64,000 nt of DNA from contig JARKQJ010000075.1 in the NCBI GenBank assembly GCA_029973955.1, forward strand, positions 1 through 64,000, read 5' to 3'. Under the pieces are notes generated by a model. It did not search any database. It saw only the letters and a list, made by a program, of their open reading frames with translations, and was not told the DNA's origin. Each line of letters begins with the position of its first letter. Position 1 is the stretch's first letter. Position numbers and translations under genes: made by a program. This DNA comes from Paludibaculum sp. GTDB taxonomy: Bacteria > Acidobacteriota > Terriglobia > Bryobacterales > Bryobacteraceae. Shown here in pieces: positions 1-12,631 of this stretch.

Positions 1-262
1 GCCGTGCTTTCAGTTGTTTCCCCAGTGGCGCGGAGATTTTGGGTCGGGGGAAGCCGTGCTTTCAGTTGTTTCCCCCCGTGGCCCCGACACTTTGTGTCGG
101 GGGAAGCCGTGCTTTCAGTTGTTTCCCCCCGTGGCCCCGACACTTTGTGTCGGGGGAAGCCGTGCTTTCAGTTGTTTCCCCCGTGGCCCAGACACTTTGT
201 GTTGGGGGAAGCCGTGCTTTCAGTTGTTTCCTTCGTGGCCCCGACACTTTGTGTCGGGGGAA
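1..262. repeat. Five tandem 52-53 bp repeats with palindromic core
   Basis: Head-to-tail units begin at 1, 53, 106, 159 and 211, each opening with GCCGTGCTTTCAGTTGTTTC and ending GGGGGAA. Units 2, 3 and 5 carry a perfect 9-bp stem (CCCCGACAC / GTGTCGGGG) around TTT. Unit 4 has two changes in the stem and unit 1 has a decayed core. Unit lengths of 53 and 52 are not multiples of 3, and open frames across them exist in three phases, so they are not protein repeats. The array starts at the window edge, so more copies may lie upstream. It could be a REP-like element, an array of binding sites or stacked terminator-like hairpins. The repeat itself is certain; its function is unknown. Confidence 0.9.
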
Positions 263-3047: not shown

Positions 3048-6000
3048 ATGGCTGAGGTTAGCAAGACAGTGGCGGTGCTGGCGGAGAAGCCGTCGGTGGC
3101 GCGGGACATTGCGAAGGTGCTGGGGGCGAATGCGCGGGGCGAGGGGTTCCTGCATGGGAACGGGTATGTGGTGACGTGGGCGATTGGGCACCTGGCGGCG
3201 CTGGCGCAGCCGCATGAGATCAATGCGGCGTGGAAGTACTGGAAGCGGGAGACGCTGCCGATGCTGCCGCGGGAGTGGCCGCTGGTGGTGTACGAGAAGA
3301 CGAAGGATCAGTTCGAGGTGGTGCGGAAGATCCTGACATCGCCGAAGGTGGAGAGGGTGGTGTGCGCGACGGACGCGGGGCGGGAGGGGGAGCTGATCTT
3401 CCGCTACATCTACGAGGCGGCGGGGAGCGAGAAGCCGGTGGAGCGGCTGTGGGTGTCGTCGTTGACGGCGGATGCGATCAAGAAGGGTTTTCACGAGCTG
3501 AAGCCTGGGCGGGAGTACGACGGGCTGGCGGATGCGGCGAAGGGGCGGAGCCGGGCGGACTGGCTGGTGGGGATGAATCTGTCGCGGGCGTATTCGCTGA
3601 CGTATGGCGAGGATCTGTCGGTAGGACGGGTGCAGACGCCGACGCTGGCGATGGTGGTGGAGCGGGAGCTGGCGATCCGGGCGTTTGTGCCGGAAGAGTA
3701 TATCGAGGTGGTGGCGACGTTTCATCCTGAGGGCAGGGAAGCGGAGGCGCAGTACAAAGGGACGTGGTTTCGGGAGCGGAAGCCGGGGGAGGACAAGGAA
3801 AAGCTGCAGCAATCGATGCGGCTGCCGGCGGACGGGCAGGAAGCGGCAGCGATTGTGGAGCGGGCGCGGACGGGGGCGGCGGAGATCGAGTCGTTGGAGC
3901 AGGCGACGCAGCGGATGGCTCCGCCGGCGTTCTACGATCTGACGGAACTGCAGCGCCATGCGAACCGGCTGTATGGGTTCTCGGCTCAGAAGACGCTGGA
4001 CACGGCGCAGGCTTTGTATGAGCGGCACAAGCTGCTGAGCTATCCGAGGACGGACAGCCGGCACTTGTCGCAGACGGTGGCGGCGACGCTGCCGCGCGTG
4101 GTGAAGACGGTGAGCGGGGCCTATGCCGAGTGGCTGGCGGCGGGGACGGGCGAGCGGCCGTTGGGGCGGCGGTTTGTGGACGATGCGAAGGTGAGCGATC
4201 ACCACGCGATCATTCCGACGGCGACGCCGCCGGAGCGGGCGACGCTGAACGGCGATGAGAGGAAGATCTACGACCTGGTCTGCCGGCGGCTGCTGAGCGC
4301 GTGGCATGGGGACTACGTGACGGCGGTGACGACGGTGATCACGGCCGTGCGGAACGAGGGCGTGGTGGACCGGTTTCACGCGTCGGGGACGGCGGTGGTC
4401 GAGATGGGGTGGAAGGTGCTGGACGTGGCGCCCCCAAAGAAGAAGGCGAAGGAGGAGGAGGAGCAGAAGCTGCCGGGCGGACTGGCGGAGGGGCAGGCTC
4501 AGGATGTGCTGGATGTGGAGGCGGTGAAGAAGAAGACGCGGGCTCCGAAGCGATTCACGGAAGCGACGTTGTTGACGGCGATGGAGACGGCTGGGAAGAC
4601 GCTGGACGAGAAAGAGCTGTCGGACGCGATGAAGGAGAGCGGGCTAGGAACGCCGGCGACGCGGGCGGGGATCATCGAAGTGCTGCTGAAGCGGGCGTAT
4701 ATCGAGAGGGTGGGGAAGAGTCTGCAGGCGACGGAGAAGGGGATCCGGCTGATTGAGGTGGTGCACCCGGAGGTGAAGAGTCCGGCGATGACGGGGCAGT
4801 GGGAGGCGTATCTGGGACGGATCCACAAGGGGAAGGATCAGTTGGAGCCGTTCATCCGGGGGATTGAGGATTACGTGCGGGAGGTGGTGGGGAAGGTGGG
4901 GCGAGCGCCGGCGGCGCCGCGGCGGGAGGCGGCCGCGACTCAGGAGGTGACGGCTAAAGAGGCGACGCCTCAGGCGGCGGCAAAGGTTGCGGCGGCTCCG
5001 CGCGAGGGTGCGACCCTGGAGGAGTTATTGCACGAGGTGTTCGGGTTTGAGCGGTTCCGGCCGAATCAGGAGGCGGTGTGCAAGGCGCTGGTGGAGGGTC
5101 ATGAGGCGCTGCTGGTGATGCCGACGGGATCGGGGAAGTCGCTGTGCTACCAATTGCCGGGGGTGGCGCGGGGCGGGACGACGCTGGTGGTGAGTCCGCT
5201 GATTGCGCTGATGGAAGACCAGGTGGCGAAGTTGAAGGCGCAGGGCCTGAGGGTGTCGCGGATCCACAGCGGGATGGACCGGGCGGCTTCGAGGCAGGCC
5301 TGCATCGAGTATTTGAATGGGGGGCTGCAGTTTCTGTTTATCGCTCCGGAGCGGCTGCGGGTGGCGGGGTTTCCGGAGATGCTGGCGAAGCGGAAGCCGT
5401 CGTTGATCGCGATCGACGAGGCGCACTGCATTTCGCAGTGGGGGCACGATTTCCGGCCGGACTACCGGATGCTGGGGCAGCATTTGCCGGCGCTGCGGCC
5501 GGCGCCGGTGATCGGATTGACGGCGACGGCGACGCCGCGGGTGCAGGACGACATCTGCCAGCAGTTGGGAATGGGGCACGTGGCGCGGTTCATTCATGGA
5601 TTCCGGCGGGAGAACCTGGCGGTGGAGGTAGTGGAGGTGGCGCCGTCGCGGCGGGGGGAGATTGTGGCGGAGCTGCTTTCGGAGGATGAGCGGCGGCCGG
5701 CGATTGTGTACGCGCCGACGCGGAAGCAGGTGGATGAGCTGACGTGGGAGTTGAAGCAGGAGTTCCCGGCGGGGGCTTATCATGCGGGGCTGGATGCAGA
5801 CCACCGGAAGAGAGTGCAGCAGGAGTTCCTGGGCGGGAAGTTGGAAGTGATGGTGGCGACGATCGCCTTTGGGATGGGGATCGATAAGCCGGATGTGCGG
5901 ACGGTGATTCACACGGGGCTGCCTGGGAGCGTGGAGGCGTACTACCAGGAGATTGGGCGAGCGGGGCGGGACGGGCTGCCGAGCCGGGCGGTGCTGATGC

Positions 6001-7064
6001 ACAGCTACGCGGATCGATATACGCACGATTTCTTCTTTGAGCGAGACTATCCGGAGGCGGACGAGTTGGAGAAGATCTACCGCGTGCTGGGGGCGGAGGC
6101 GCTGGAGAAAGATGTGGTGCGACGGAAGGCGCGGATGGGGGAGGCGGAGTTCGACACGGCGCTGGAGAAGCTGTGGATTCACGGCGGGGCGATGGTGGAC
6201 TATGCGGAGAACGTGAGTTTGGGGAAGGAGGGTTGGCGGGAGAGTTACGTGGCGGTGCGGAAGCAGAAGGAGTCGCAGATTGAGGAGGTGATCCGGTTTG
6301 CGGAGACGAGCCACTGCCGGATGACGACTTTGGTGCGGTACTTCGGCGATGAAGAGGACAGCGGCGAGGCGTGCGGGGTGTGCGATTTCTGCGCGCCGGG
6401 CGAGTGCGTGGCGCAGCGGTTCCGGGAGGCGACGCTGACGGAGATGGGCGTGGTGCGGAGGGTGCTGGGGGCGCTGAAGCACGGGAATGCGCGGTCGACG
6501 GGGCGGCTGCATGAGGATGTTTGCGGGAAGGGCGAGCTGGACCGGGATGGGTTCGAAGAAGTGCTGGGGGCGATGGCAAGAGTGGGTTGGGTGGAGATGG
6601 CGGACGCGGTGTTCGAGAAAGAGGGGCGGAGGGTGCCGTACCGGACGGCGCGGCTGACGGATGAGGGATTGGAGCTGGAAGAGGATGACGTGGTGGAGCT
6701 GCAGGTAAAGGAGGCGGCGGCGCCGGCGAAGCGGAGGAAGAAGGGGAAGAAGGAGAAGAAGGCGGAGGCCGAGGCTCCGAAGAAGAAGGGGGCGCAGCGG
6801 CGTGAGGTGAAGGAGCGGGCGCAGCAGGTATTGGTGGAGGCGGATGAGGGACTAGAGAAGGCGTTGAAGGCGTGGCGGCTGGAGGAGGCTCGCAAGAAGG
6901 GCGTGCCGGCGTTCCGGGTGATGACGGACAAGGTGTTGAAGGAGATTGCGGTGAGGCGGCCGGAGTCAGCGGCGGAGTTGCTGGCGATTCCGGGGGTGGG
7001 GATCAAGATGGTGGAGCAGTATGGGCGGGTGCTGTATCGAATTCTTGGGAAGAGTACGAATTGA
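3048..7064 (+). CDS. DNA topoisomerase III - RecQ helicase fusion
   Basis: A 1338-aa single polypeptide. Residues 1-620 are a type IA topoisomerase III: toprim EKPS at 13-16, ATDAGREGE at 107-115, SVGRVQTPTLAMV near 191 and the active-site tyrosine Tyr332 in SYPRTDSRHL. A K/E-rich insert lies near 463-475 and the zinc ribbons of longer type IA enzymes are absent. After an Ala/Pro/Lys linker (about 618-655), a full RecQ helicase follows: Walker A MPTGSGKS 691-698, DEAH 790-793, GLTATATP, ATIAFGMGIDKPDVR, the EIGRAGRDG arginine finger, and a C4 zinc site at Cys1090, 1109, 1112 and 1115. A winged-helix region, a lysine-rich linker (1228-1247) and a C-terminal HRDC domain (about 1265-1335) complete it. 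RecQ plus TopoIII is the core that dissolves recombination intermediates; here both are covalently joined. The frame is continuous with no shift. Confidence 0.95.
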   Translation: MAEVSKTVAVLAEKPSVARDIAKVLGANARGEGFLHGNGYVVTWAIGHLAALAQPHEINAAWKYWKRETLPMLPREWPLVVYEKTKDQFEVVRKILTSPKVERVVCATDAGREGELIFRYIYEAAGSEKPVERLWVSSLTADAIKKGFHELKPGREYDGLADAAKGRSRADWLVGMNLSRAYSLTYGEDLSVGRVQTPTLAMVVERELAIRAFVPEEYIEVVATFHPEGREAEAQYKGTWFRERKPGEDKEKLQQSMRLPADGQEAAAIVERARTGAAEIESLEQATQRMAPPAFYDLTELQRHANRLYGFSAQKTLDTAQALYERHKLLSYPRTDSRHLSQTVAATLPRVVKTVSGAYAEWLAAGTGERPLGRRFVDDAKVSDHHAIIPTATPPERATLNGDERKIYDLVCRRLLSAWHGDYVTAVTTVITAVRNEGVVDRFHASGTAVVEMGWKVLDVAPPKKKAKEEEEQKLPGGLAEGQAQDVLDVEAVKKKTRAPKRFTEATLLTAMETAGKTLDEKELSDAMKESGLGTPATRAGIIEVLLKRAYIERVGKSLQATEKGIRLIEVVHPEVKSPAMTGQWEAYLGRIHKGKDQLEPFIRGIEDYVREVVGKVGRAPAAPRREAAATQEVTAKEATPQAAAKVAAAPREGATLEELLHEVFGFERFRPNQEAVCKALVEGHEALLVMPTGSGKSLCYQLPGVARGGTTLVVSPLIALMEDQVAKLKAQGLRVSRIHSGMDRAASRQACIEYLNGGLQFLFIAPERLRVAGFPEMLAKRKPSLIAIDEAHCISQWGHDFRPDYRMLGQHLPALRPAPVIGLTATATPRVQDDICQQLGMGHVARFIHGFRRENLAVEVVEVAPSRRGEIVAELLSEDERRPAIVYAPTRKQVDELTWELKQEFPAGAYHAGLDADHRKRVQQEFLGGKLEVMVATIAFGMGIDKPDVRTVIHTGLPGSVEAYYQEIGRAGRDGLPSRAVLMHSYADRYTHDFFFERDYPEADELEKIYRVLGAEALEKDVVRRKARMGEAEFDTALEKLWIHGGAMVDYAENVSLGKEGWRESYVAVRKQKESQIEEVIRFAETSHCRMTTLVRYFGDEEDSGEACGVCDFCAPGECVAQRFREATLTEMGVVRRVLGALKHGNARSTGRLHEDVCGKGELDRDGFEEVLGAMARVGWVEMADAVFEKEGRRVPYRTARLTDEGLELEEDDVVELQVKEAAAPAKRRKKGKKEKKAEAEAPKKKGAQRREVKERAQQVLVEADEGLEKALKAWRLEEARKKGVPAFRVMTDKVLKEIAVRRPESAAELLAIPGVGIKMVEQYGRVLYRILGKSTN

Positions 7065-7076
7065 TAGGATCTGAAT

Positions 7077-8291
7077 GTGCGGATCACGGCACTGATCTTT
7101 GCGGCTTCGATGGTATACGGGCAGGAGAGCCTGACGCTGGAGGAAGCGGTCACCAGGGCGCTGGGGAACCATCCGCTGCTGGCGGAGGGGCAGAGGCGGA
7201 TTCAGGCGGCGCAGGGGCAACAGCGGCAGGCGGGGCTGAGGCTGAATCCGCGGCTGGTGCTGCAGGCGGAGAATTTGCGCGGGCCGGGGCAGGTTCCGTT
7301 TGTGTATGGGCGGGACACGGACAACTTTGCTTATCTGACGCAGACGTTTGAGACGGCGGGGAAACGGGGGAAGCGGGTGGAGCTGGCGTCGCAAGGATTG
7401 AGAAGCACGGAACTGGAACTGGCGGTGCTGCGGCGACAGGTGGCGCGGAGCGTGGTGCTGGCGTATTGGAGCGCGGCCGGGTCGGAGCGGATGAGGGAGT
7501 TGCTGGACGAGAGCGTGCGGACGTTCCAGCAGGTGGTGGAGTATCACGAGGCGCGAGTGCGGGAAGGGGCGATGGCGGAGAGCGATCTGTTGCGGGTAAA
7601 GCTGGAGGCGGGGCGGTTTGCGCTGGCGGCGAATAATGCCAAGCTGGACGCGGCGCGGGCGCGGATCGAGCTGTTCCGGACGATGGGGGAGACGGCGTTT
7701 CCGGAGGTGAAGTTTACGGAACCGCTGGAGCTGAGGGAAGACCGGGGCGTGCTGGGCGAGGCGGCGGAAGCGCTCCGGAAGCGGCCGGAGGTGGAGTTGG
7801 CGGCCACGAGGTTGGAGCAGGCGAAGCGGCAGTTGGCGGTGGCGCAGGCCACGGCGACACCGAATGTGGAGGGGCTGTTCGGGTACAAGCGGACGAACGG
7901 TTTCGACACGCTGCTGGCGGGCATGCAGTTGGACTTGCCGTTTGCGAATAGGAACCAGGGAAACATCCAGACAGCGACGGCGGAGATCAAGGCGGCGGAG
8001 GCGAACCGGGCGGCGACGGAGGCGATAGTGCGGGCGGAGGTGGAGGCGGCGCGGGCGGAGTATGAGGTGCGGCGGAAGCAAGTGAGCGAGTTTCTGGGGC
8101 GGCTGAAGGAAGAGGCGTCGGAGACGTCGAAGATCGCGCAGGCGGCGTACCGGCTGGGCGGCGCGGATCTGTTGCGGCTGTTGGACGCGGAGCGGCTGCG
8201 GATAGAGATCGACCTGTTGAACTACCGGGCGATGATGGAGTACCGGCAGAGCGCGGCGGCGCTGGAGTTTGCACTGGGAGTGAAGCCATGA
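7077..8291 (+). CDS. TolC-family outer-membrane efflux protein (CzcC-like)
   Basis: A 404-aa outer-membrane channel of a tripartite metal efflux pump. It starts with GTG at 7077, 12 bases after the topoisomerase stop. A short signal peptide (about 1-15) precedes SLTLEEAVTRAL, the typical OEP opening. Two repeated long alpha-helical regions are rich in Ala, Glu and Arg; the second ends SKIAQAAYRLGGADLLRLLDAERLRIE, the usual second-repeat signature. It overlaps the adaptor gene by ATGA at 8288-8291, so translation is coupled. An ATG two bases earlier is out of frame. Metal specificity must come from the permease; CzcC is the closest functional class. Confidence 0.88.
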   Translation: MRITALIFAASMVYGQESLTLEEAVTRALGNHPLLAEGQRRIQAAQGQQRQAGLRLNPRLVLQAENLRGPGQVPFVYGRDTDNFAYLTQTFETAGKRGKRVELASQGLRSTELELAVLRRQVARSVVLAYWSAAGSERMRELLDESVRTFQQVVEYHEARVREGAMAESDLLRVKLEAGRFALAANNAKLDAARARIELFRTMGETAFPEVKFTEPLELREDRGVLGEAAEALRKRPEVELAATRLEQAKRQLAVAQATATPNVEGLFGYKRTNGFDTLLAGMQLDLPFANRNQGNIQTATAEIKAAEANRAATEAIVRAEVEAARAEYEVRRKQVSEFLGRLKEEASETSKIAQAAYRLGGADLLRLLDAERLRIEIDLLNYRAMMEYRQSAAALEFALGVKP

Positions 8292-9505
8292 AGCGCTGGA
8301 TATGGACGGCGGCGGTGTTGTTGCTGGCGGGCTGCACGAAAGAGGCGCCGAAGCCGGCGGCTCCGGCGGCGAAGGAGGAGAAGAAGGCCGGACCGCGCGT
8401 GGTGGAGCTGGACGCGACGGCAATGAAAGAGGCCAACGTGCAGGTGGCCACGGTGGAGGAGCGGCGGGTGCCGTTGACGGTTCGGGCGAACGGGCGGCTG
8501 ACGGCGAACGAGAATACGACGTGGCGCGTGGGGGCGATCACGGATGGCCGGATCATTGTGGCGGCGGCGAAGGTGGGGGACCGGGTGGAGAAGGGGCAGG
8601 TGCTGGCGCGGATGCACAGCCACGACATTCACGAGTCGAGGGCGCTGTACCGCAGAGCGGTGGCGGAACAGAACCGGCTGCAATCGAATCTGGAATACGC
8701 GCGGCGGCAGCGGGACCGCGTGAAGAGGCTGCTGGAGATGAAGGCGGCGAGCCAGGAGCAGTTGGATACGGCGGAGAACGAGCTGAAGAATGTGCAGACG
8801 GCGCTGAAGAGCGCGGAGATTGAGGTGAACCGGACGCGGAACCACCTGGTGGAGTTTTTGGGGATTCCGCCGGAGGGGTCGGAGGAGAAGGAGCACGAGG
8901 CTTCGCCGGAGGCGCATGTGGAGGATCTGATTCCGGTGCGGGCGCCGGCCGCTGGGATCGTGCTGACGCGGCTGATCACGCCGGGGGCGGTGGTGCAGGC
9001 GTCGGGGGATTTGTACGTGTTGTGCGACCTTTCGACGATTTGGGTGATGGCGGCGGTGCAGGAGGAGTTCCTGCCGAAGGTGCGGACGGGGATGACGGCG
9101 CGGGTGAAGGTGCAGGCGTATCCGGACCACACGTTCGTGGGGAAGGTGACGAAGATCGACGAGAAGCTGGACGCGGAGACGCGAACGGTGCAGGTGCGGG
9201 TGGAGGTGGACAACCAGCGCGGGCTATTGAAGCCGGAGATGTATGCGGGTGTGGAACTGGAAGCCGGCGGGAGCGAGCCGGGACTGTTTGTGCCGCAGGT
9301 GGCGGTGCAGGATGTGAACGGGCAGGCGACGGTGTTCGTGGAGAAGGAGCGGGGCAAGTACGAACCGCGGACGGTGGAGACGGGGCGGACGCTGGAGGGG
9401 CTGATCGAGATCCAGCGGGGACTGATCGCGGGCGAGAAGGTGGTGAGCGGCGGGAGCTTCATTCTGAAGTCGCAGTTACTGAAGGCGAGCCTGTCGGAAG
9501 AGTAG
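8288..9505 (+). CDS. RND efflux periplasmic adaptor (CzcB-like), lipoprotein
   Basis: A 405-aa membrane-fusion protein bridging the inner-membrane permease and the outer-membrane channel. The signal peptide ends in lipobox LLAGC at about residues 14-18, so it is probably lipid-anchored in the inner membrane. A biotinyl-lipoyl-like half motif appears as ITDGRIIVAAAKVGDRVEKGQVLARMHS. It is followed by a coiled-coil hairpin (about 118-195, many Glu/Arg/Gln) and a beta-barrel domain ending VVSGGSFILKSQLLKA. It sits between the channel (4-bp overlap) and the permease (9-bp gap), forming a complete CzcCBA operon. Confident family call; the CzcB label follows from the permease's metal signature. Confidence 0.9.
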   Translation: MKRWIWTAAVLLLAGCTKEAPKPAAPAAKEEKKAGPRVVELDATAMKEANVQVATVEERRVPLTVRANGRLTANENTTWRVGAITDGRIIVAAAKVGDRVEKGQVLARMHSHDIHESRALYRRAVAEQNRLQSNLEYARRQRDRVKRLLEMKAASQEQLDTAENELKNVQTALKSAEIEVNRTRNHLVEFLGIPPEGSEEKEHEASPEAHVEDLIPVRAPAAGIVLTRLITPGAVVQASGDLYVLCDLSTIWVMAAVQEEFLPKVRTGMTARVKVQAYPDHTFVGKVTKIDEKLDAETRTVQVRVEVDNQRGLLKPEMYAGVELEAGGSEPGLFVPQVAVQDVNGQATVFVEKERGKYEPRTVETGRTLEGLIEIQRGLIAGEKVVSGGSFILKSQLLKASLSEE

Positions 9506-9514
9506 GGGCGCGAG

Positions 9515-12500
9515 ATGTTGCAGCGGATCATCGACTTTCACTTGAAGCAGCGCTGGGTGGTGCTGCTGGGCGTATCGCTGATTGTGTTGGTGGGCGTCTC
9601 GGTGATGTTGCGGATTCCGGTGGATGCATTTCCGGATTTGACGAATAACCAGGTGGTGGTGGTGACGGAGTGTCCGTCGATGGCGCCGGGCGAGGTGGAG
9701 CAGTTGGTGACGTTCCCGATCGAGAGCGCGCTGATGGGGATACCGAAGACGGAGGGGATCCGGTCGATTTCGAAGCTGGGGCTGTCGATGGTGACGCTGA
9801 TCTTCGACGACAGCGTGAATACGTGGTTCGCGCGGCAGTTGGTGAACGAGCGGCTGCAGGAGGTGCGCGGGCGGCTGCCGCAAGGGTTGGACCCGACACT
9901 GGGGCCGATGGCGACGGCGTTTGGCGAGGTGTACCAGTACACGGTGGAGGGCAAGGGTCACACGCCGATGGATCTGAAGACGATCCACGACTGGCAGATC
10001 CGCTACGCGCTGCGGACGGTGCCGGGCGTGAATGAAGTGAATAGCTGGGGCGGGGAGACGAAGCAGTACACGGTGGAGGTGGACCCGGCGAAGCTGCAGC
10101 GGTACGGGTTGGATTTGAGGACGGTGTTCGAGCGGGTGAGCGAGAACAACGCGAACTTTGGCGGCGGGTTCATCGAGCACGCGATGGAGCAGTACACGGT
10201 GCGGGGCTTGGGGCGGGCGCAGAGCGTGTCGGATCTGGAGCGGATTGTGGTGCTGGCGCGGGCGGGGACTCCGGTGCTGTTGCGGGACGTGGCGGAGATC
10301 CGTCTGCGGCCGCTGCCGCGGCAGGGGGCGACGCTGCGGGACGGCAAGGGTGAGACGGTGAGCGGCATGGCGATCATGCTGAAGGGCGAGAACGGGAAGA
10401 AAGTAATCGAGAGGGTGAAGGCGAAGCTGGCGGGGCTGCGGCTGCCGGAGGGCGTGCAGGTGGTGCCGTTCTACGACCAGAGCACGGTGATCGATGGCAC
10501 GGTGCACACGGTAACGAAGGCGCTGATTGAAGGTGGCGCGCTGGTGGTGGTGGTGTTGATGGTGTTTTTGGGCAACTGGCGGGCATCGCTGATTGTGGCG
10601 GCGGTGATCCCGCTGTCGATGTTGTTCGGGTTCATGGGGATGGCGCTGTTTGGAGTGTCGGCGAACCTGATGAGCCTGGGGGCGATCGACTTCGGGATGA
10701 TCGTGGACGGGTCAGTGGTGATGATGGAGAACTCCGTGCGGCGGCTGCAGCGGAGGAAGGGGGAGGAGGGGGAGTTCCACGCGCTGGAGCGGGTGAGAGT
10801 GGCGGCGCACGAGGTGTCGCGGCCGATTGTGTTCGCGGTGATGATCATCGTGGCGGTATACATGCCGGTGTTCTTCCTGGAGGGGCTGGAAGGGCGGATG
10901 TTCCGGCCGATGGCGATTTCGGTTTGCTCGGCGCTGTTGGGGTCACTGATTCTGGCGTTGACGGTGGTACCGGCGGCGGCGTCGGTCCATTTGAGCAAGG
11001 GCGTGAAGGCGCACAACGAACGGTGGTTCGAGTGGGTGAAGGGGAAGTACATGGGGGCGCTGCACTGGTCGCTACATCACCGGTTGCTGCTGGTGGGGTC
11101 GAGCGTGGCGGTGCTGGCGGTAGCGCTGGCGTCGGTGGGGTATATCGGCAGCGAGTTCATGGCGCGGCTGGATGAGGGGTCGATTCTGGTGGAGACGCGG
11201 AAGATGCCGGGGATCTCGTTGACCGATTCGGTGACGATCAGCAACCGGATTGAGCGGATCATCGTAGGCTTCCCGGAGGTGAGCGGCGTGGTGACGCGGA
11301 TCGGGCGTCCGGACGTGGCGACGGAGGCGATGGGGATCAACCAGGGCGACGTGTACGTGCTGCTGAAACCGAAGGACGAGTGGAAGCGGTTCACGACGAA
11401 GGAGGAGCTGATCGTCGCGCTGGACCAGGCGCTGGAAGCGGTGCCAGGCGTGAGCTACAACTTCACGCAGCCGATGGCGATGCGGCTGGATGAGACGATT
11501 TCGGGGATCAAGGCCGATGTGGCGGTGAAGATCTTCGGGGAAGACGCGCGGATGCTGGAGAAGCTGGCGGAGAAGGCGTTGAAAGTGGTGAACGGGGTGC
11601 AAGGGGCGGCCGATTCGCAGATGGAGATCGCGTCGGGCGTGGCGGAGCTGCGGGTGGAGGTGGACCGGGACGCGCTGGCGCGGTATGGGCTGAACGTGAG
11701 CGATGTGCAGGCCCTGATGGACGCGGCGATCGGCGGGCGGCAGGTCTCGGAGATGATCGAGGGGCAGAAGCGGTTCGCAATCGTGGTGCGACTGCCGGAG
11801 CGGTACCGCGAGGACGACGAGGCGGTGCGGGGGCTGCTGCTATCGGCGCCGGGCGGGGAGAGGGTGCGGCTGGGTCAGGTGGCAAGGGTGACGATGGCGC
11901 GCGGTCCGGAGGTGATTTCGCGGGAGGACGGGCAGCGGCGGATCGTGGTGCAGTGCAACGTGCGAGGGCGGGATTTGGGGAGTTTTGTGGCGGAGGCGCG
12001 GCGGCGGATGGACGGGGAGCTGCAGTTGCCTGCGGGATATTCGATCGATTGGGGCGGGCAGTTTGAGAATCAGGACCGGGCGACGAAGCGGCTCATGATT
12101 GTGCTGCCGGCGTCGGTGGTGGTGATCTTCGGTCTGCTGTTCTTTACGTTCGGCTCGACGCGGCAGGCGCTGCTGATTCTGACGAATGTGCCGTTTGCGT
12201 TCATCGGCGGAATTGCGGCGTTGTGGTTGCGCGGGTTGAATTTGAGCATCTCCGCGGCGATCGGGTTCATTGCGCTGTTCGGCGTGGCTGTGCTGAACGG
12301 CATCGTGCTGGTGAGTTCCATCAACCGGTTGCGGGAACGCGGACTGGCGATGGAACAGGCGCTGCTGGCAGGCGCCGGCATGCGGTTGAGGCCTGTACTG
12401 ATGACGGCGATGGTGGCGAGCCTGGGGTTCCTGCCGATGGCGCTGGCGACGACGACGGGCGCGGAGGTGCAGAGGCCGTTGGCGACGGTGGTGATTGGTG

Positions 12501-12631
12501 GACTGATTACTTCGACGTTGTTAACGCTGTTCCTGCTGCCGGTACTATTTCCGTGGTTTGTGTCGTCGAAGGTGGAGTTTGCGACGTATGAGGGGGATCC
12601 GGTGGTGCGGGAGATCGAAGAAGAAGAGTAG
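9515..12631 (+). CDS. CzcA-family heavy-metal RND efflux permease
   Basis: A 1038-aa proton-driven inner-membrane pump, normal length for the family. An N-terminal transmembrane segment (about 13-34) is followed by RIPVDAFPDLTNNQVVV, the CzcA-type porter opening. TM4 carries DFGMIVDGSVVMMEN at residues 392-406. This is the DFG-x3-DG-x4-x-EN pattern of divalent-cation exporters, with Ser where the Zn/Co/Cd type usually has Ala; copper/silver pumps have a different motif. A second repeat begins near HHRLLLVGSSVAVLAVALASVGYIGSEFMARLDEGS. It is the last gene of the CzcCBA operon. Substrate is probably Zn, Co, Cd or Ni; no metal regulator lies beside it. Confidence 0.92.
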   Translation: MLQRIIDFHLKQRWVVLLGVSLIVLVGVSVMLRIPVDAFPDLTNNQVVVVTECPSMAPGEVEQLVTFPIESALMGIPKTEGIRSISKLGLSMVTLIFDDSVNTWFARQLVNERLQEVRGRLPQGLDPTLGPMATAFGEVYQYTVEGKGHTPMDLKTIHDWQIRYALRTVPGVNEVNSWGGETKQYTVEVDPAKLQRYGLDLRTVFERVSENNANFGGGFIEHAMEQYTVRGLGRAQSVSDLERIVVLARAGTPVLLRDVAEIRLRPLPRQGATLRDGKGETVSGMAIMLKGENGKKVIERVKAKLAGLRLPEGVQVVPFYDQSTVIDGTVHTVTKALIEGGALVVVVLMVFLGNWRASLIVAAVIPLSMLFGFMGMALFGVSANLMSLGAIDFGMIVDGSVVMMENSVRRLQRRKGEEGEFHALERVRVAAHEVSRPIVFAVMIIVAVYMPVFFLEGLEGRMFRPMAISVCSALLGSLILALTVVPAAASVHLSKGVKAHNERWFEWVKGKYMGALHWSLHHRLLLVGSSVAVLAVALASVGYIGSEFMARLDEGSILVETRKMPGISLTDSVTISNRIERIIVGFPEVSGVVTRIGRPDVATEAMGINQGDVYVLLKPKDEWKRFTTKEELIVALDQALEAVPGVSYNFTQPMAMRLDETISGIKADVAVKIFGEDARMLEKLAEKALKVVNGVQGAADSQMEIASGVAELRVEVDRDALARYGLNVSDVQALMDAAIGGRQVSEMIEGQKRFAIVVRLPERYREDDEAVRGLLLSAPGGERVRLGQVARVTMARGPEVISREDGQRRIVVQCNVRGRDLGSFVAEARRRMDGELQLPAGYSIDWGGQFENQDRATKRLMIVLPASVVVIFGLLFFTFGSTRQALLILTNVPFAFIGGIAALWLRGLNLSISAAIGFIALFGVAVLNGIVLVSSINRLRERGLAMEQALLAGAGMRLRPVLMTAMVASLGFLPMALATTTGAEVQRPLATVVIGGLITSTLLTLFLLPVLFPWFVSSKVEFATYEGDPVVREIEEEE

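Follow-up and report, generated by a model that had tools for sequence, protein, structure and literature searches.

The window, i.e. the whole stretch of 64,000 nucleotides from Paludibaculum sp. analysed here (contig JARKQJ010000075.1), carries on its forward strand an open reading frame (ORF) of 1338 codons (3048..7064, +), which starts with ATG, has no internal stop and encodes a topoisomerase III (TopIII) followed by a RecQ helicase. The ORF, the Pfam and NCBIfam matches and the recurrence of the gene in other genomes confirm that its 1338 aa product is a genuine one-chain TopIII-RecQ protein with both enzymes complete, as had been claimed in a preliminary description made from the DNA letters (a topoisomerase with Tyr332 and a RecQ that has its zinc site and HRDC domain, both complete and in one frame). 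The Pfam domains follow one another along the whole chain in the order Toprim, Topoisom_bac, DEAD, Helicase_C, RecQ_Zn_bind and HRDC, and all parts of the gene given below are on the + strand.

The topoisomerase half comprises the Toprim domain (residues 9-138, 3072..3461) and the type IA topoisomerase domain (Topoisom_bac, residues 157-603, 3516..4856). It scores above the NCBIfam cut-offs for topB (TIGR01056: 590.7 bits, cut-off: 515.75; NF005829: 684.9, cut-off: 597) and below that of the bacterial TopA model (218.4, cut-off: 456.4). The Toprim acids E13, D109 and E113 and the active-site Tyr332 (codon 4041..4043, motif SYPRTDSR at 331-338) are all present in the window's protein. Across the fused clade, E13, K14, D109 and E113 are invariant (51/51 rows) and Tyr332 is found in 50/51 rows, the remaining one (G779) having a gap at a contig break; the single substitution in the active-site set is one His386 to Tyr. 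E. coli TopIII (TopB; 1d6m, 1i7d) resembles this half throughout, in the Toprim acids, the active-site Tyr and the fold, but it is a separate chain of 653 aa, and its D105 corresponds to residue 111 of the fusion, which is Gly. As Gly occupies this position both in 51/51 fused-clade rows and in 19/19 rows of separate TopIIIs, it is no mark of the fusion. The lack of C-terminal zinc ribbons, pointed out in the preliminary description, is not a distinguishing trait, since E. coli TopIII aligns over 5-610 likewise. In the genus-mates G006 and G007 (L089, L090) roughly 100-150 residues are added within the topoisomerase, near 435-447.

The RecQ half is composed of RecA-1 (DEAD, residues 671-833, 5058..5546) with the Walker A K697 and DEAH at 790-793, RecA-2 (Helicase_C, residues 871-976, 5658..5975) with R971 and R974, the zinc site C1090, C1109, C1112 and C1115 (RecQ_Zn_bind residues 1070-1115, 6255..6392) and HRDC (residues 1267-1331, 6846..7040), the last two scoring over the Pfam cut-offs (PF16124, PF00570). 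The cut-off of the RecQ family model is exceeded (TIGR00614 recQ_fam: 385.9 for the whole chain, 389.0 for the RecQ half, cut-off: 219.8). K697, D790, E791, H793 and the motif VI arginines are kept in 48/48 RecQ rows, and the zinc cysteines in 47/47 rows that have a letter there. The known RecQ proteins (E. coli 1oyw, D. radiodurans 4q47, BLM) share with the fusion RecA-1, RecA-2, the four-Cys zinc site, a winged helix and HRDC. Unlike them, the RecQ of the fusion is placed behind TopIII, scores below TIGR01389, and has an additional winged-helix-like element inserted after RecA-2 and ahead of the zinc site (residues about 1004-1058, 6057..6221), for which AlphaFold2 (AF2) predicts the secondary structure H-H-H-E-E with a predicted local distance difference test score (pLDDT) of 89-96 for the block; 90 residues separate the aligned RecQ parts in the fusion versus 25 in E. 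coli RecQ. A second, RQC-like winged helix (residues about 1130-1203, 6435..6656) was recognized from the AF2 fold alone, and neither winged helix matches any Pfam family.

Between the two enzymes AF2 predicts a disordered tether (about residues 613-650, 4884..4997; pLDDT <50 at 613-647 and 623-646), and another disordered linker, rich in Lys, precedes HRDC (about residues 1240-1262, 6765..6833; pLDDT <50). The tether measures 12-111 residues across 32 fusions (median 43), the pre-HRDC linker 32-81 residues across 31. The nearest solved structures are the E. coli TopIII and RecQ cores: Foldseek reported E. coli TopIII (2o59, 2o19, 1i7d) at the top and RecQ cores lower for the model of residues 1-1190, and RecQ (4tmu, 1oyw) and BLM for the model of residues 605-1338. 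In these models each enzyme is predicted to fold well, with no defined placement relative to the other; the structure prediction of the joint proposed in the preliminary description returned the tether and no confident contact between the halves.

The search for other one-chain cases, proposed at the same time, was fruitful. Over all loci, 58 ORFs span both enzymes, and the removal of 18 duplicates left 40 distinct uninterrupted fusions, the window's included, spread over seven families of the window's phylum (f1, f3, f10, f37, f40, f50, f76 in our numbering) and a second phylum, that of a metagenome-assembled genome (MAG) record titled Deltaproteobacteria. HRDC is in frame in 38/40 (all except L105 and L173). 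Left out of the 40 are genes interrupted at the end of a contig or by an N gap (G002, G005, G008, G023, G026, G286 and G416, in the last of which the two contigs meet exactly at residue 701 of the fusion), frameshifted MAG copies (L025, L029), truncated fusions (G281, G321) and G779. The closest named relatives, which place the window in Acidobacteriota, are from Bryobacterales or Acidobacteria MAGs (57-69% identical across both halves), and one half-gene contig is 94% identical to the window fusion. With the second-phylum genes included, the mean divergence across fusions is 38% for the topoisomerase half and 45% for the RecQ half.

Among 41 genomes (the window's own and 40 relatives) the topoisomerase half of the fused clade is found in 26, with an unbroken joint in 23 and a contig end or N gap in 3 (G008, G023, G026). 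The other 15 belong to f1 (G001, G003, G004, G009, G011, G013, G014, G016, G018, G024), f2 (G025, G027) and f3 (G036, G037, G038, which keep a solo RecQ); 7 of them are just 62-84% complete, and some of these absences may be gaps. A 396-genome sample of the window's phylum yielded a TopIII match (E<=1e-60) in 44 genomes, comprising 10 one-frame fusions, 2 contig-split fusions (G286, G416), 2 truncated fusions (G281, G321) and 30 TopIIIs without this RecQ. In the second phylum, at the same threshold, 16/240 genomes have a TopIII match and 3 have a one-frame fusion (G802, G811, G664); the order of G802 has the fusion in 2/59 genomes. The truncated genes of G321 (L101, 5528-8221) and G281 (L102, 5928-8552) contain the full TopIII and a RecQ ending at residue 843, with a similar end in both. 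In G779, from the second phylum, the gene is split by a contig end, and on its second contig (L177, 1-1095) the frame passes the TopIII-RecQ joint and stops at residue 702, well inside the contig; judging from its reading frame, this gene is a truncated or frameshifted fusion. No topoisomerase match had an open frame of >1050 aa among 216 genomes from the phylum of a Planctomycetia record, >904 aa among 219 from that of a Sporosarcina record, or >867 aa among 218 from that of a Porphyromonadaceae record; these are samples, which do not prove that the fusion is absent there. Separate TopIIIs of family f8 (L058/L112 in G263, L059/L113 in G086) lie in frames of about 1065 aa that extend some 400 aa beyond the TopIII match, with no RecQ match. 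A plasmid origin found no support, as none of the best 5000 plasmid records had a place covering 80% of the query.

Separate copies of the two enzymes are missing from most of the carriers examined. With E<=1e-40 as the limit for counting a second copy, no second TopIII was found in 15/15 fusion genomes searched singly and no second RecQ in 14/15 (exception: G408), with all candidates scored in 12 of these genomes and 31 of 36-41 in G286, G389 and G408. Of the 26 carriers among the 41 genomes, 24 have no second TopIII, further TopIII-like pieces being present in G010 (243 aa frame) and G040 (403 aa frame), and 17 have no second RecQ. The question raised in the preliminary description, whether carriers would lack separate topB and recQ, is answered affirmatively for most genomes. 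Weaker RecQ pieces were detected in G006 and G035, another RecQ occurs in both second-phylum genomes of the order of G802, and the window's own genome has a distant second RecQ (33%, C186) and a TopA (855 bits to TIGR01051); other weak topoisomerase matches were assigned to TopA by score alone. In genus g19 of family f3 no full match to the RecG model was found in 9/9 genomes (G026, G028-G031, G033, G034, G039, G040), including the one-contig G028, and all nine carry the fusion (in G026 the joint is interrupted by an N gap). The best RecG-model matches in this genus, frames of 1150-1330 aa matched by the helicase part alone, look like Mfd. Since it is confined to one genus, the loss of RecG counts as one event; of the other 32 genomes 29 have RecG over the cut-off, while in G014, G022 and G027 it is in pieces.

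In the topoisomerase tree, a single branch unites the halves from the fusions, from both truncated fusions and from the second-phylum set and separates them from 19 other TopIIIs, with a support of 98.9 in the Shimodaira-Hasegawa-like approximate likelihood ratio test (SH-aLRT; 57 in an earlier tree with fewer rows). The 26 solo RecQs of the RecQ tree lie dispersed among the fused ones, which amounts to 8 changes, and the hypothesis that all fused RecQs form one clade is rejected (approximately unbiased test, p-AU 1.5e-6). Both trees were made by a quick method and contain long branches. Their simplest reading is one old fusion, after which the topoisomerase half was lost repeatedly; gene transfer may be an alternative, of which the sparsely found second-phylum fusions may be an example. 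Across 48 fusions, the distances in one half correlate with those in the other (r 0.82, 0/2000 permutations as high), as expected of parts inherited together.

RecQ unwinds DNA in the 3' to 5' direction, and TopIII passes single strands. We consider it rather probable that the fusion is a one-chain 'dissolvasome', in which a flexible tether links a type IA decatenase (TopIII) to a RecQ helicase. In its favour count the completeness of both enzymes, the conservation of their catalytic and zinc residues, the joint inheritance of the halves and the lack of another TopIII or RecQ in most of the carriers examined. With ATP, the RecQ motor together with its winged helices and HRDC would unwind or migrate late replication or recombination junctions, the proposed targets being converging forks, hemicatenanes and double Holliday junctions, while the tether would hold TopIII at a high local concentration, 1:1 with RecQ, at the same junction. 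TopIII would cut the exposed single strand at Tyr332, pass the other strand and reseal, and the joint molecules would thereby separate without crossover. The length, variability and flexibility of the tether suggest that the enzymes would be coupled by proximity and not through a rigid connection.

The precedent for such cooperation in bacteria is contentious in the case of E. coli. A review states that RecQ-TopIII pairs together dissolve double Holliday junctions, applies the term dissolvasome to TopIII with a RecQ-family helicase and mentions that a complex of E. coli TopIII with RecQ can form (PMC8191776). Two other papers report that RecQ stimulates E. coli TopIII in vitro, but also that the two do not interact physically and that the genetics is disputed (PMC13244152, PMC4125114). 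For E. coli, the bacterial partnership invoked in the preliminary description is backed by the complex cited in the review and disputed by these two papers, and is thus less secure than was stated there. In a Listeria record (NZ_LR134400.1, L190) recQ and topB share a strand with 23 bp between them, in the order opposite to that of the fusion; the 594 kb piece, which contains guaB, recQ and topB and was deposited as 'plasmid 3', looks chromosomal by its content.

Several observations weigh against a dissolving machine of this kind. For E. coli, genetics published in 2026 link TopIII to RecG and not to RecQ (PMC13244152), and an older paper favours topo I over TopIII as the partner of RecQ (PMC4125114); the window's genome has a RecG. 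A further RecQ-like gene is present at E<=1e-40 in 9/26 carriers (G000, G021, G022, G026, G031, G033, G034, G039, G040), G281 and G321 each have a complete solo RecQ elsewhere in the genome in addition to their shortened fusions, and G779 may be a similar case. The narrower model TIGR01389 ('DNA helicase RecQ') is not reached (502.9 for the whole chain, 506.6 for the RecQ half, cut-off: 640.2), and AF2 gives no confident mutual packing of the two halves (predicted template modelling score, pTM, 0.58; mean pLDDT 90). Several losses of the topoisomerase half are probable, for instance in the f3 genus g23 and in the class-mate family f4; if it was lost repeatedly while RecQ was kept, that half is not essential and the coupling is not indispensable. 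These losses and the missing predicted packing, together with the almost tenfold variation in tether length and the solo RecQs of the same clade placed inside the fused ones, are what one would expect if two independent enzymes merely shared a chain for the sake of joint expression, with RecQ under selection and the TopIII half as a disposable passenger. We regard this as unlikely, though deserving serious attention, because the topoisomerase active site is invariant across the fusions, its half diverges no faster than RecQ, and most carriers have no other TopIII; the retained active sites and the lack of another TopIII argue against a passenger topoisomerase.

The remaining explanations fare worse. 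In reverse gyrase the helicase part comes first. The fusion has in common with it a superfamily 2 (SF2) helicase and a type IA topoisomerase in one chain, and both halves look active, so that a RecQ motor driving directional strand passage by TopIII, and changing supercoiling with ATP, might be imagined. We find this very improbable, given that the order of the parts is the opposite (TopIII first), that the joint is floppy, that the topoisomerase is of the topB type, that the reverse gyrase model TIGR01054 gives 99.2 of the required 471.7 bits and only on the topoisomerase part, and that no reverse gyrase occurs among the best 50 Foldseek matches of the 1-1190 model, even though reverse gyrase is, according to the review cited above, the known natural chain of helicase and type IA topoisomerase (PMC8191776). 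An artefact is extremely improbable, whether in the form of an overlooked frameshift or stop, of a chimeric contig, or of an internal start that yields two proteins. In some MAG copies the gene is indeed interrupted, by the end of a contig, by an N gap (G026) or by a frameshift (L025, L029), and near the joint GTG or TTG codons with a Shine-Dalgarno-like run, all weak candidates, occur in 13/32 copies, including the window. However, no in-frame ATG is found near the joint in 20/32 fusions, the window's among them, which speaks against a shared internal start, and some of the 40 uninterrupted frames come from genomes in few contigs (G007 in 2, G028 in 1, G035 in 3). The frameshift or stop at the joint by which the preliminary description allowed the fusion to be dismissed did not appear, the frame being open here as in all 40 distinct fusions. 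Finally, the profile hidden Markov model PDLC02865 of PADLOC-DB, labelled 'DpdF', matches the fusion end to end with 1714 bits, which would make it a phage-defence protein of the 7-deazapurine DNA system. We attach practically no credence to this label. The TopIII half matches positions 23-666 and the RecQ half positions 745-1351 of the 1499 in the model, which also gives 460 bits to plain TopIII and 735 bits to plain RecQ; since it spans both enzymes and scores each of them alone, PDLC02865 describes the TopIII-RecQ architecture and not DpdF. The NCBIfam DpdF model is far from its cut-off (NF041063: 200.8, cut-off: 550), and 0/9 nearby ORFs in the window have a PADLOC match at E<=1e-5, which speaks against a dpd cluster at this locus. 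The model thus covers the whole architecture of the fusion under a name that belongs to another, defence-linked gene. It is a trap, by which the fusion would be reported as a phage-defence gene, and is likely to produce false defence calls.

The genomic neighborhood is not conserved as an operon: the ORFs flanking the gene in the window match none in the other 24 of 25 loci compared, several of which have short flanks. Among these 25 loci the neighborhood is kept only within family f3 (L076, L078, L079, L082), and elsewhere single neighbours are common to two or three loci. A scan for promoters and terminators gave a single weak hit for each, in either case on the - strand. Downstream of the fusion and on its strand (7077-12631), from 12 bases past the fusion stop, lie OEP, HlyD/CusB-type and AcrB-type efflux genes (the last of the resistance-nodulation-division, RND, type), and upstream a GH43-like gene ends 24 bases before the fusion. 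At the start of the window (1-262) a 53-base GC-rich unit is repeated five times in tandem with 93% matches, each unit holding, by eye, an inverted repeat around TTT.

We found no paper describing a natural TopIII-RecQ chain in the open-licence literature. The statement of the preliminary description that no characterized fusion is known stands in this respect, but a public PADLOC model (2023) spans exactly this architecture. Bennett and Wang (2001) reportedly made Top3-Sgs1 fusion proteins in yeast, which join the same pair but are laboratory-made and eukaryotic. The BLM/Sgs1-TopIII-Rmi dissolvasome contains the same two enzymes, which in the fusion too would work as one unit, but on separate chains; the disordered N-terminus of Sgs1 is reported to bind Top3/Rmi1.

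Tentatively, and with somewhat less confidence than in the proposed activity, we speculate that the family could represent, in addition to reverse gyrase, another naturally occurring class of machine that combines a helicase with a type IA topoisomerase, here in reversed order: an old tethered dissolvase of single origin, the only TopIII and usually the only RecQ of its hosts, which would achieve within a single polypeptide the joint action that is disputed for RecQ and TopIII of E. coli, and which may have outlived RecG in one genus. For single-molecule studies of junction dissolution the fusion is a ready-made enzyme with a 1:1 ratio of its parts, and the relatives that dropped one half are natural controls. 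The natural pair bears on the disputed question of whether RecQ and TopIII of E. coli cooperate in the manner of BLM/Sgs1 and Top3. Its existence as a covalent unit that has kept every active site, across at least seven families of one phylum as well as in a second phylum, counts as good evidence that the two enzymes are partners in some bacteria.

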